Shown piece after piece: positions 2,736 to 32,887 of a DNA stretch of 64,000 bases (within the stretch, counting starts at the first letter, position 1; every line of letters begins with the position of its first letter). The stretch covers positions 1,798,001-1,862,000 of the forward strand of contig NZ_CP114909.1 of the NCBI RefSeq assembly GCF_027497355.1, in the 5' to 3' direction. The position numbers were made by a program, and so were the translations under genes. The notes under the pieces are model-generated. The model did no database searches. It saw only the letters and a list, made by a program, of their open reading frames with translations, and was not told where the DNA came from. The stretch is from Micromonospora sp. WMMA1947 (lineage in GTDB: Bacteria; Actinomycetota; Actinomycetes; Mycobacteriales; Micromonosporaceae).

Positions 2736-2752
<17 letters not shown>
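1265..2752 (+). CDS. Tat-exported protein with N,N-dimethylformamidase beta-subunit-like domain
   Basis: The protein has 495 residues. It starts with a twin-arginine signal (RRRTALGLF at about residues 5-13, then an Ala/Gly-rich hydrophobic run), so it should leave the cell folded. The body resembles the large-subunit fold annotated as N,N-dimethylformamidase beta subunit. Typical blocks are RIGWYDGAGAR, LPVTTWQAYNQW, the segment around SYATSFDLH, and FCGHDEYWS. No small subunit gene lies nearby, so a true amidase role is doubtful; many actinobacterial members are uncharacterised secreted proteins. The ATG follows GGGAGC in the leader. The 3' end overlaps the convergent purD by 17 bases, so the two transcripts can pair at their ends. 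Confidence 0.75.
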
Positions 2753-3992
<1,240 letters not shown>

Positions 3993-4020
3993 CCTACTGA
4001 CCGCCCCACCCCACCCCGTC

Positions 4021-4078
4021 GATCATGAAGTTGACGGCAGGATGTGAGATCGACATCGCCGTCAACTTCATGGTCAAC
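4021..4078. repeat. GATCATG palindromic element, copy 1
   Basis: Imperfect 58-base inverted repeat. The left arm is GATCATGAAGTTGACGGC (4021-4038), the right arm GCCGTCAACTTCATGGTC (4058-4075), with a loop of about 19 bases containing ATGTGAGATCGACA. It closely matches the copy at 5100-5160, including the loop, in the same orientation. The stop codon of the reverse-strand gene at 4074-5003 is the TGA read from its right edge. It could act as a terminator or RNA stabiliser for that gene or downstream of purD's promoter side. Confidence 0.85.
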
Positions 4079-5003
4079 GCCGGGTCCTCGCGGCCAGTGC
4101 CTGGCGGATCACCTGGGGGATGTAGTCGGGACGGAGGGTGTCGGGCCAGGTGAACCTGAGGACGGTCCAGCCGGCGTTGGTCAGACGGTTCTGCCGCTGC
4201 CTGTCGTCGAAGAGCGCATCGGGCGTGGAGTGCGGACCACTTCCGTCCGCCTCGGCGATCACCCGGGCGGTCCGCCAGCCCATGTCGCCGATGCCGAGCA
4301 GGTAGCCGTCGGCGTCCCGCACCTCGACCTGGAGTGCGTCCGGCGGGACGCCGCCGTCGACGCACCGGAGACGGGTACGCGTCTCCAGCGGCGACTGGGC
4401 GCCGCCGTTCGCCTCGGCCAGGTAACGACGTGCGTTCACCACGCCCCGGCGGCCCGCGATCAGGGCGGGGATGGCCGCGAACTCGTCCTCACTGATCCGT
4501 CCCTGGTTGAGCGCCGAGTCGAGCAGGGCCACCGCGACGTAGCGACGTACCCGGAGGACGAGTTCCGCGAGCGTGTGCGTGGGAGCCGTCACCGGAATGC
4601 CGTCGACAGTCGTCAGCGCCTGCTCGGGATGCTCGAACTGGTGCAACGCCACGGCGGGATCCCTGACACGGGCCGGCCGCGCCGCGTGCCCCGGCACCGC
4701 GACGTGAATCGTGCCCGTCCTCGGCAGCCCCGCGATCCCGTGCAGCTCGGCTGCCGTGCCGAGAACGGCGTGCGCCTCCGGACCCAGCGACAGGACCGCC
4801 GCCCGGATCTGACGGCGTCGCTCCGCGCCGTCGGGTCCGGGGCGGTCGACGGCGTACGTCGCGCGAGCCAGCCGCCGCCACCGACGCGAGGTGAGAAGAT
4901 TGTCGATCTCGTGCCGGCTGAAGCCGGCCCGGAGCGCCTGTGCACGGGTGACGACGCCACCCTGGTCACTCGCGATCTGCCGGATCACCCAAGCCCGTTC
5001 CAC
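4074..5003 (-). CDS. AbiEi-like winged-helix plus DUF559 (Vsr-like nuclease fold) protein
   Basis: The protein has 309 residues from GTG 5003; an ATG at 5108 inside the upstream palindrome would give 344. The N-terminus (IASDQGGVVTRAQALRAG followed by RHEIDNLL and RRLARATYAV) is the helix-turn-helix type found in AbiEi antitoxins. The C-terminus (MGWRTARVIAEADG, DRQRQNRLTNAGW, VLRFTW) is DUF559, related to the Vsr/PD-(D/E)XK nuclease fold. I prefer GTG 5003 because the family N-terminus begins there and the extra 35 residues are low-complexity. No AbiEii toxin gene is adjacent, so the antitoxin label reflects domain similarity only. The gene lies between two copies of one palindromic element, and its stop codon is provided by one of them. 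The function of such solitary proteins is not established. Confidence 0.75.
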   Translation of the reverse strand: MERAWVIRQIASDQGGVVTRAQALRAGFSRHEIDNLLTSRRWRRLARATYAVDRPGPDGAERRRQIRAAVLSLGPEAHAVLGTAAELHGIAGLPRTGTIHVAVPGHAARPARVRDPAVALHQFEHPEQALTTVDGIPVTAPTHTLAELVLRVRRYVAVALLDSALNQGRISEDEFAAIPALIAGRRGVVNARRYLAEANGGAQSPLETRTRLRCVDGGVPPDALQVEVRDADGYLLGIGDMGWRTARVIAEADGSGPHSTPDALFDDRQRQNRLTNAGWTVLRFTWPDTLRPDYIPQVIRQALAARTRR

Positions 5004-5043
5004 CCACCGAGCGTCCCCGCGCACGCCACCCACGCGAGACCCC

Positions 5044-5073
5044 TGTGGATAACCCACCCAACCCTGTGGACAA
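5044..5073 (-). other. pair of DnaA-box-like sites
   Basis: On the reverse strand the sequence reads TTGTCCACA then TTATCCACA (plus strand TGTGGACAA at 5065-5073 and TGTGGATAA at 5044-5052). Both match the DnaA-box consensus, and their starts are 21 bases apart, about two helical turns. They lie in the 5' region of the DUF559 gene. Two sites cannot make an origin, but they could titrate DnaA or regulate the gene. Confidence 0.55.
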
Positions 5074-5099
5074 CCCCGACCGGCCTTCGCCGTCGCCCC

Positions 5100-5160
5100 G
5101 TTGATCATGAAGTTAGCGGCAATGTGGATCTACAAAACGGCCGTCAACTTCATGATCAAC
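5100..5160. repeat. GATCATG palindromic element, copy 2
   Basis: Inverted repeat of about 61 bases with arms GTTGATCATGAAGTTAGCGG (from 5100) and GGCCGTCAACTTCATGATCA (from 5139), and an AT-richer loop with ATGTGGATCTACAAAA. It aligns over its whole length with the copy at 4021-4078 in the same orientation. It lies between the DUF559 gene and the 3' end of purA and could terminate purA transcripts. An in-frame ATG of the DUF559 reading frame (5108) lies inside it. Confidence 0.85.
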
Positions 5161-5161
5161 C

Positions 5162-6567
<1,406 letters not shown>

Positions 6568-11584: not shown

Positions 11585-11665
11585 AAGGAAGGGCCCCCTC
11601 TTAACGCCTCCGGTAGAGGAAGGGCCCCTTGTCAACCATAGTGGTTGACAAGGGGCCCTTCCTTA
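11585..11665. repeat. GGGCCC dispersed element, copy 1, with 20+ bp hairpin
   Basis: Begins AAGGAAGGGCCCC directly after the LOG stop codon and continues TTAACGCCTCCGGTAGA, then a second AGGAAGGGCCCCTTGTCAAC. That second block forms a long, almost perfect hairpin with GTTGACAAGGGGCCCTTCCT (from 11644), between two convergent genes. Related copies lie at 31617 and 60671. It likely terminates both flanking transcripts. Confidence 0.85.
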
Positions 11666-31616: not shown

Positions 31617-31670
31617 AAGGAAGGGCCCCCTGTTAACGCCTCCGGTAGAGGAAGGGCCCCTTGTTAACCA
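31617..31670. repeat. GGGCCC dispersed element, copy 2
   Basis: Reads AAGGAAGGGCCCCCTGTTAA, CGCCTCCGGTAGAG, then GAAGGGCCCCTTGTTAACCA on the plus strand. It is nearly the same as copy 1 (11585) and, in reverse, copy 3 (60671). Two GGAAGGGCCCC blocks are separated by the fixed spacer GCCTCCGGTAGA. It sits just downstream of the MFS gene and may terminate it. Confidence 0.85.
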
Positions 31671-31675
31671 CAGGG

Positions 31676-32887
31676 TCAGGTCAGCCGGGTCGCGTCGCGC
31701 AACGGACGCCAGGCGAACACGGCGATCGCCGCCATAGCCCCCGCCGCGGCCCAGAACGGTGTGGTGATCCGCCAGGTCCCGGCCAGCAGACCGCCGAGGA
31801 GCGCACCGAGCGCGGCTCCGCCGAGATCGAGCAGCGCATACACGCTGCCAACCCGCCCGCGCAGGTGGGACGGCACGATTCGCTGCCGGACCGACGCGGC
31901 GGTGATGCCCCAGACCATGGCGTGGACGCTGAAGACGATCAGGACAGCGGCGGCGATCCAGGGCGCCGTCGTGACGGCCAGGGTCACGTGTGTGACGACC
32001 TCGACGACCAGGCCGCCACGCAGCACCGTACCGGCGCCGAGCGCCCGGGTGAGTGCGCCGGCAACCGTCGTGCCGAACAGGCCCCCGACAGCGAACGAGG
32101 TCAGCAGGAAGCCGTACCCGACGTCGGACAGGCCCAGTCGCTGCCGGCAGTAGAGCACGAACACCGCGAATGCGGCACCGAACGCTACGTTGCCCAGGCC
32201 CATGCTCACGGCGAGCGTCCGCAACAGGCGGTGCCGCCACAGCCAGCGCACACCCTGGCGTATCTCGCCGCGCAGCGAGCCGCGCGGACGGGCCTCGTCC
32301 GGCACGGGCGCCCGTCGGATGCCGGCGATCAGGGCCGCCGCAGCCGCGAAGGTCAGCGCGTCGAGCCCGAACGGCACAGCGGCGGAGACGACGAACAGCC
32401 ACGCGCCCAGCGGCTTGGCGACGAACTGGTTGCCGATGGTGAACGTCGCGTACAGCCGGGCGTTGGCGGCGGGCAGCCTCTCGGATGCGACCACCGCCGG
32501 GAGCAGAGCGCCCATCGCGGTGTCCACGAGGGTTTCACCGACGCCGAGCAGGAACAGCACCACGTAGATGACCGCCACGGTGACCGTGCCGGTGGCGACG
32601 GTGAGCGTCAGCCCGGCCAGCGCCGCGGCGCGGAACAGATTGACGACGACGACCAGCAGACGTCTGTCGAGCCGGTCCACGTATGCGCCGCTGACCAGCG
32701 CGAACAGCAGCCAAGGCAGTTGTTGGGCGAAGACGGCGCCGGCGATCAGGGCCGGATCGTTGCTGACGGCGGCCACCAGCAGCGGGCCGGCGGCCATGGT
32801 GACACCGTCACCGATGTTGGAGACCGCCGAAGCGGTCCACAGTCTGGTGAAGTCCGCGCCGAGACGCGCGGGTGGAAGGGCACGCAA
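31676..32887 (-). CDS. MFS exporter (macrolide-efflux / EntS-like)
   Basis: Major facilitator protein of 403 residues with about 10-12 helices. LPARLGADFTRLWTASAVSNIGDG-type N-terminus (TASAVSNIGDGVTM), the loop motif SGAYVDRLDRRLL and SHLRGRVGSVYALLDLGG in the second half place it among drug-efflux MFS proteins. TTG 32887 is chosen because GAGGAG lies seven bases upstream; an ATG at 32921 is out of frame. A leader ORF and competing hairpins precede it, suggesting induction by a ribosome-acting compound. Substrate unknown. Confidence 0.85.
   Translation of the reverse strand: MRALPPARLGADFTRLWTASAVSNIGDGVTMAAGPLLVAAVSNDPALIAGAVFAQQLPWLLFALVSGAYVDRLDRRLLVVVVNLFRAAALAGLTLTVATGTVTVAVIYVVLFLLGVGETLVDTAMGALLPAVVASERLPAANARLYATFTIGNQFVAKPLGAWLFVVSAAVPFGLDALTFAAAAALIAGIRRAPVPDEARPRGSLRGEIRQGVRWLWRHRLLRTLAVSMGLGNVAFGAAFAVFVLYCRQRLGLSDVGYGFLLTSFAVGGLFGTTVAGALTRALGAGTVLRGGLVVEVVTHVTLAVTTAPWIAAAVLIVFSVHAMVWGITAASVRQRIVPSHLRGRVGSVYALLDLGGAALGALLGGLLAGTWRITTPFWAAAGAMAAIAVFAWRPLRDATRLT

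Follow-up and report, generated by a model that had tools for sequence, protein, structure and literature searches.

The repeats known as REP, together with their RAYT proteins, are the best known case of a bacterial palindrome with a dedicated enzyme, which cleaves the repeat in single-stranded form. In an excerpt of PMC3733652, REP repeats carry a GTAG or CGTC tag at one of their ends, and the abstract of PMC8266576 describes the spread of REP-type repeats as poorly understood. AbiEi proteins appear in excerpts of PMC7319586 as repressors that bind inverted repeats, AbiEi and Rv2827c each binding a pair of 23-bp inverted repeats separated by 3 and 13 bp. The homing endonuclease I-Bth0305I, according to an excerpt of PMC3943268, forms a dimer on a target site that is almost 60 bp long.

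Between purA and purD, Micromonospora sp. WMMA1947, from a genus of soil bacteria, carries a gene for an AbiEi-EDxHD/DUF559 protein bracketed by two palindromes. An earlier note on this DNA had likened the layout to REP sequences with their RAYT transposase, and the likeness holds well beyond the locus. As in REP/REPIN and RAYT (TnpA-REP) systems, palindromes both flank a putative helper gene and are dispersed through the genome in tens of copies, the gene with its cognate flanking palindromes is mostly single-copy, and the class of repeat follows the resident protein. The enzymes differ, an AbiEi part plus a Vsr/EDxHD nuclease here and a Y1 HUH transposase there, and so do the repeats, which here end in GATCA without a GTAG (or CGTC) tag and have a fixed core of 54-55 nt. 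The Y1/RAYT transposase family PF01797 is absent from 73 of the 101 genus genomes, the source genome included, and for those 73 a RAYT is ruled out as the mover. With neither the Y1 transposase nor the GTAG tag, the system works like REP/RAYT yet is not a member of it.

Other described systems share some features with this one. Unlike the type IV antitoxins AbiEi and Rv2827c, the protein has a fused nuclease domain, and its sites are dispersed through the genome and stand at both ends of the gene. No AbiEii/DUF1814 toxin gene is adjacent, the neighbours being purD and purA or, at a second locus, sdhB and a nudix-like gene. AbiE antitoxins bind inverted repeats in their own promoter; here a palindrome lies upstream of the gene and is a candidate operator. 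Unlike I-Bth0305I and Vsr, the gene stands free between purA and purD and its product has an AbiEi-like DNA-binding part; unlike EDxHD homing endonucleases, it shares its genome with many intact copies of its presumed target. Copying into a cleaved allele, as by a homing endonuclease, would be compatible with the frequent replacement of the module at one locus. The palindromes resemble MITEs in that they are short, code for nothing, consist of inverted repeats and have a putative helper acting in trans; they differ in that the helper is not a known transposase and that, short of a systematic search, no insertion sequence sharing their ends came to notice as a parent. The pairing of gene and palindrome was not found described in the titles or abstracts searched, the subscription literature being mostly outside reach, and none of the papers containing an arm string concerns Micromonospora by title or abstract, among the matches listed.

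Layout of the module

The window, by which we mean the whole stretch of 64,000 nucleotides that was analysed, contains the following features.

2736..3992, minus strand: purD (Pfam), downstream neighbour
4021..4075, no strand: palindrome A, core GATCATGAAGTT...AACTTCATGGTC, 55 nt
4074..5027, minus strand: AbiEi-EDxHD/DUF559 gene, analysed as 317 codons and a stop
4080..4394, minus strand: Vsr/EDxHD-type nuclease domain, residues 212-316
4407..5000, minus strand: AbiEi-like winged helix-turn-helix and middle domain, presumed arm binder, residues 10-207
5044..5052, minus strand: DnaA-box-like 9-mer TTATCCACA, upstream of the gene
5065..5073, minus strand: DnaA-box-like 9-mer TTGTCCACA, upstream of the gene
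5103..5157, no strand: palindrome B, core GATCATGAAGTTAGCGGC...GCCGTCAACTTCATGATC, 55 nt
5215..6504, minus strand: purA (Pfam), upstream neighbour

The earlier note had described two palindromes that enclose exactly one gene, and both points are borne out. The inverted repeat of palindrome A spans 4017-4079 with 22-nt arms (91% complementary), that of palindrome B spans 5096-5164 with 25-nt arms (88% complementary), and the single minus-strand gene enclosed by them lies in turn between purD and purA. Both cores read GATCATGAAGTT...AACTTCATGATC with small changes over 55 nt, the middle being variable, and outer bases like CGTT/AACG lengthen the inverted repeats beyond the cores. As had been pointed out, the TGA stop (4074-4076) overlaps the end of palindrome A, and an in-frame ATG (5106-5108) sits inside palindrome B; the gene frame is open up to that ATG, and the candidate start used for analysis is the 5027 end. 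The claim that the two copies share one orientation did not hold: the arms, being palindromic, align in both directions, and the asymmetric middles, with their AGATC motif, are opposed in the window. Among the 38 scorable pairs from 46 loci of the two ATG classes with one element per side, the middles point the same way in 21 and opposite ways in 17.

The 12-mer GATCATGAAGTT, at up to two mismatches, occurs seven times in the window against 0.60 expected, and 0 of 100 shuffles reach seven. An Rfam scan of window positions 3900-5300 matched no family. The earlier observation is confirmed as real, and it is bigger than first described.

TTATCCACA and TTGTCCACA, which we take to be DnaA boxes, TTGTCCACA in its actinobacterial form, lie between the upstream palindrome and the gene and are the window's only two TTRTCCACA sequences. 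At least one DnaA-box-like 9-mer is found in 74 of 78 genus orthologs, with two in 48 (three more orthologs are too short). Such a 9-mer also precedes 23 of 24 orthologs from other genera, leaving aside one that was too short to score, and 17 of 29 paralogs; the background rate, taken from four genomes, is 0.002-0.007 per 220 nt. We infer from these sites that expression of the gene is tied to replication, probably through control by DnaA.

The protein

The nuclease-like fold that had been proposed for the product on the strength of DUF559 agrees with the C-terminal half, which is Vsr/EDxHD homing-endonuclease-like; the N-terminal half is of the AbiEi DNA-binding type. Pfam AbiEi_4 and DUF559 both score above their cut-offs on the gene product, PADLOC AbiEi models match it with E down to 3.5e-23, and fold comparison finds the AbiEi antitoxin fold together with a putative catalytic domain of the I-Bth0305I type. 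A PDB sequence search returned one weak match (3hrl, E 0.78). Across 61 sequences of the putative EDxHD nuclease domain, E215, E259 and D261 are invariant, and D248, H266 and D275 are at least 90% conserved. Members of the gene family are annotated in their sources as antitoxin-domain, endonuclease-domain, DUF559 or hypothetical proteins, and every one of the 24 named genome loci with at least 57% identity belongs to Micromonospora.

Bracketing of the gene by palindromes

A detector for GATCA-ended elements finds palindromes on both flanks of the gene in 71 of the 81 genus loci and on one flank in 10, five of them at contig ends; none has zero. The named Micromonospora loci, a set that overlaps the 81, have both flanks palindromic in 22 of 24 cases; the downstream copy at L038 is degenerate, and L047 is cut off by the contig start. 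Distant paralogs were dropped as unflanked controls, since the first detector recognised one arm type and a generic detector, which accepts GATC-ended inverted repeats, found other palindromes there. Random genes replaced them as the control set. With the generic detector, both flanks are palindromic in 58 of 72 genus orthologs (9 at contig ends left out), 8 of 23 other-genus orthologs (2 left out; neither flank in 7 of the 23), 16 of 29 distant paralogs (31-37% identity, with other palindromes) and 1 of 729 control genes.

At the paralogs the palindromes are of other kinds, most of them longer, comprising CGATCTTGCACTTT, GTCGATCATGGAGTTGTG and GTCGATCTTGGAGTTGTG types of about 64-82 nt and a GTCGATCTAGGGCATATCG type of 64 nt. 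Loci of distant AbiEi-DUF559 paralogs that carry their own palindromes include L141 and L385. Two further copies of the GATCTTGGAGTT type beside L141 occur elsewhere in 552 kb of the source genome.

Dispersal in genomes

The source genome (6.31 Mb, one contig) contains the 12-mer, at up to one mismatch, 101 and 99 times per strand, as against 5 and 4 for the reversed control; two-arm patterns identify 68 ATG-class and 38 AAG-class elements. Reversed-control two-arm patterns gave zero matches in the 101 genus genomes, and this result, together with the control genes above, rules out chance or ordinary terminators as the origin of the elements. Carriage by a plasmid or phage was also considered and rejected, with one 30% plasmid match and no phage match. 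Most elements lie outside crude ORF calls (35 of 41 sampled), and they are scarce in divergent spacers (2 of 41 versus 119 of 494 background gaps, by crude gene calls).

The 77 genomes that carry a module or fragments of one hold a median of 41 AAG and ATG copies (minimum 7), versus a median of 4 in the 24 that carry none, with a p value of 2.5e-10 that ignores relatedness. For unlinked copies alone the figures are 39 versus 4 between module-bearing and module-less genomes (p 5e-10, relatedness again ignored). The co-occurrence that the earlier note proposed to look for is present: elements are many in gene-bearing genomes and few where the site is truly empty, and the gene is bracketed far above control genes. 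The outcome that the earlier note had named as a refutation did not occur: both enrichment at the gene and empty sites were found, though most dispersed copies adjoin unrelated genes.

Architecture of the palindrome

The core is rigid in length. Among 39 opposed arm pairs (pairs within 400 nt, in 1.65 Mb from four genomes), 35 measure 55 nt, one measures 56 and three are longer. Arm classes were assigned per locus by majority as AAG, ATG1 (RRCGG) or ATG2 (RTTGYC), with exceptions at L103, which has mixed flanks, and L095, which has an ATG start but an AAG-like inner arm and length. Gene-flanking elements are 55 nt long in 52 of 54 cases for ATG1 and 42 of 44 for ATG2; those of the AAG class are 54 nt in 35 of 55 cases and 55 nt in the other 20. 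In the ortholog classes encountered, the elements end in GATCA/TGATC, and a detector that does not require GATC gives the same ends. The 19-nt middle is drawn from few recurring motifs, GATC (GGAGATC), CGACACGCCG, GACAAAWCGGAC and AGCGCT, which are combined with differing arms in several Micromonospora genomes. At one orthologous site, CGTCCGATTTGTC variants are retained and the remainder drifts. The motif CGACACGCCG occurs in a second genus, g16, too, despite the different arms there.

At most of the positions that vary among the elements of one genome, the two arms change independently of each other, which argues against arms base-paired as a hairpin. For 34 of the 61 ATG elements of genome G021, positions 13, 14 and 18 are identical between arms in 27, 16 and 23 elements versus 26.2, 16.5 and 23.4 expected, and position 9 leans to agreement (24 versus 18.9). 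The corresponding counts for 21 elements of the source genome, at positions 9, 14 and 18, are 15, 8 and 8 versus 13.0, 10.9 and 10.6. Across species the gene-flanking arms agree, as at ATG1 position 8 in 54 of 54, an agreement inflated by relatedness. Because the arms vary independently within a genome yet share a local consensus across species, a pair of protein-bound half-sites tracking one protein would fit better than a hairpin.

Arm class on protein and neighbour trees

A tree of the 75 intact protein sequences requires 3 changes of arm class, versus a mean of 35.9 for shuffled classes. The tree of the neighbours purA and purD (66 rows) requires 28, versus a shuffled mean of 31.0, and 23 of 200 shuffles are as low. 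On the 63 rows shared by both, there are 3 changes on the protein tree versus 27 on the neighbour tree. Since arm class follows the protein and not the neighbours, gene and both palindromes have been exchanged as one module, replaced repeatedly at one locus.

Linkage suffices to explain the coupling of arm and protein at the locus itself; results for unlinked copies do not rest on linkage. For the latter, gene-side copies were subtracted and 73 one-class genomes were compared, the four genomes with modules of two classes being left out. Unlinked AAG elements have a median of 24 in the 29 genomes with an AAG module versus 5.5 in the 44 others (p 1.4e-8), unlinked ATG2 elements a median of 7.5 in the 20 genomes with an ATG2 module versus 0 in the 53 others, 36 of them lacking any (p 7.6e-7), and unlinked ATG elements other than ATG2 a median of 26 in matching genomes versus 13 (p 8e-4), all three p values ignoring relatedness. 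Independent pairs on the neighbour tree tend in the same direction but are too few, at 4.2 same and 1.2 opposite of 12 for AAG and 2.8 and 0 of 8 for ATG2. Many genomes also hold numerous copies of a non-resident class (G021 has an AAG module and 61 ATG elements), and such copies are read as relics of an earlier module. We regard a cognate pairing of the AbiEi-EDxHD nuclease family with dispersed palindromes as very probable.

Filled, solo and empty sites

The earlier note had suggested looking for presence or absence of the whole unit in relatives, and the purA-purD spacer indeed holds a full module, a solo palindrome or nothing, depending on the species. The 24 genus genomes without an ortholog comprise 9 with short purA-purD spacers (39-71 bp), 1 with a decayed remnant, 6 with solo palindromes and 8 unclassed. 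The ten genomes with an empty or decayed site have 0-4 elements each. Those six with a solo palindrome in the spacer have 4-41, among them the gene-less yet rich G057 (41 copies) and G079 (38), and the eight module-less genomes with a contig break, or in which purA was not found, have 1-31. The genome with the decayed purA-purD module (G099, locus L188) has zero strict-pattern elements and seven Y1 transposase matches.

The same three states recur at a second locus. A module lies between sdhB (Pfam) and a nudix-like gene (read from the sequence) in seven genomes, bracketed likewise wherever the contig reaches. The sdhB-nudix spacer of 30 other genomes holds a solo palindrome in 6, an odd spacer of 380 nt in 1 (G092) and none in 23. 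The class of the solo palindrome matches the resident one in four of these six genomes and differs from it in G065 and G038.

Orthologs in genus g16 have gene-side arms of the form GATCATGAACTTATGG. As we had predicted from these gene-side arms, a pattern built on them occurs in all 11 g16 genomes, at 1-60 copies, and in 0 of 15 genomes of eight other genera. Nine g16 genomes with a close ortholog hold 4-60 copies, and the two without one (G205 and G219) hold 1 and 8.

Movement and insertion sites

Comparisons between near species (n = 73, ordered and not independent) found the same element in 46 cases, a different class in the same place in 16, an empty site in 8 and another outcome in 3. Near species mostly share copies, so movement is slow. 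Among five sites with an empty counterpart, no clean target duplication at a precise junction was obtained, spacers diverging fast. Two of the five keep a single GATC where the element would sit, which is compatible with insertion at GATC and suggestive only. At one site between convergent genes (L009, source genome C1:501362), six species have the element and five have a GC-rich hairpin, as judged by eye; elements may partly be kept as terminators, standing in for GC hairpins.

A second dispersed repeat, GGAAGGGCCCC...TTAAC, was seen at window positions 11587-11650 and 31619-31680 and also elsewhere in G000, G021, G019 and G062. It is often paired, 31 bp apart. At one palindrome site of G062, relatives carry this repeat in its place.

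Proposed mechanism and alternative explanations

The explanation that we consider probable, from comparison of sequences, is a REP/RAYT-like mobile palindrome system spread by the AbiEi-EDxHD nuclease. The AbiEi-type N-terminal half, as a dimer, would bind the two arms of the palindrome of about 55-63 bp, as its fold and known AbiEi operators suggest, and the C-terminal Vsr/EDxHD nuclease would cut or nick it. The gene, usually between purA and purD, and its two cognate palindromes make up one module, which species gain, exchange and lose, its loss sometimes leaving a solo palindrome. Gene-less copies probably spread through cutting in trans by the resident protein, followed by repair or copying. 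The arm sequence would represent the specificity of each protein clade, and the two DnaA boxes would have the gene expressed in step with replication. Of the nuclease-linked mobile palindrome that the earlier note put forward, linkage and exchange are supported; that the nuclease moves the palindrome is what we infer. We also lean towards a broader view of an AbiEi-EDxHD superfamily in the Micromonosporaceae, in which each clade would spread its own operator-like palindrome selfishly, as DnaA-controlled "mobile operators", the modules being old alleles that pass from species to species at loci that stay fixed.

The palindromes might instead be operators, insulators or terminators of a genome-wide regulator that does not move them, their number reflecting selection for sites. 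This accords with the repression through inverted repeats that excerpts of PMC7319586 ascribe to AbiEi proteins, with the rarity of elements in divergent spacers, with their position at one site, which GC hairpins occupy in other species, and with the frequent conservation of orthologous copies. We judge it unlikely all the same: point mutation would hardly give tens of sites per genome that each have two 18-nt arms a fixed distance apart, the genome-wide arm class differs with the resident allele, the fused predicted nuclease domain keeps its conserved acidic residues, and the module itself is present at two loci. In another reading a different transposase moves MITE-like palindromes, the nuclease gene is cargo between two copies, and the coupling of arm and protein is linkage only. 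Module exchange alone does yield local coupling on the protein tree, and terminal inverted repeats with conserved GATCA ends suit such elements. Unlinked copies too match the resident class, however, paralogs elsewhere carry their own, different palindromes, and the Y1 transposase, the family searched, is absent from 73 of 101 genomes, which leaves this reading quite improbable.

It is more improbable still that the gene is an orphan AbiE-type antitoxin or a phage-defence nuclease whose autoregulatory sites are repeated by chance. The PADLOC AbiEi matches, with E down to 3.5e-23, are what such a protein would give; against this, the direct neighbours are purD and purA with no toxin gene, and the palindromes stand on both sides of the gene, even past its stop codon, and are dispersed.

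Significance

The way in which gene and palindrome change together between species suggests a small mobile DNA of a kind not described before. If the system spread by the AbiEi-EDxHD nuclease is as proposed, its mobile palindrome is served by an enzyme that has no relation to any known transposase, and a second, unrelated protein with the genomic logic of REP/RAYT would mean that such a pattern arose more than once in evolution. At a single locus, arm class and protein clade have been exchanged jointly about 25 times, which provides a system for study. The proposal would give a testable function to proteins now named antitoxin-domain, endonuclease-domain, DUF559 or hypothetical, and it would explain a repeat present at tens of copies in most of the Micromonospora genomes sampled.
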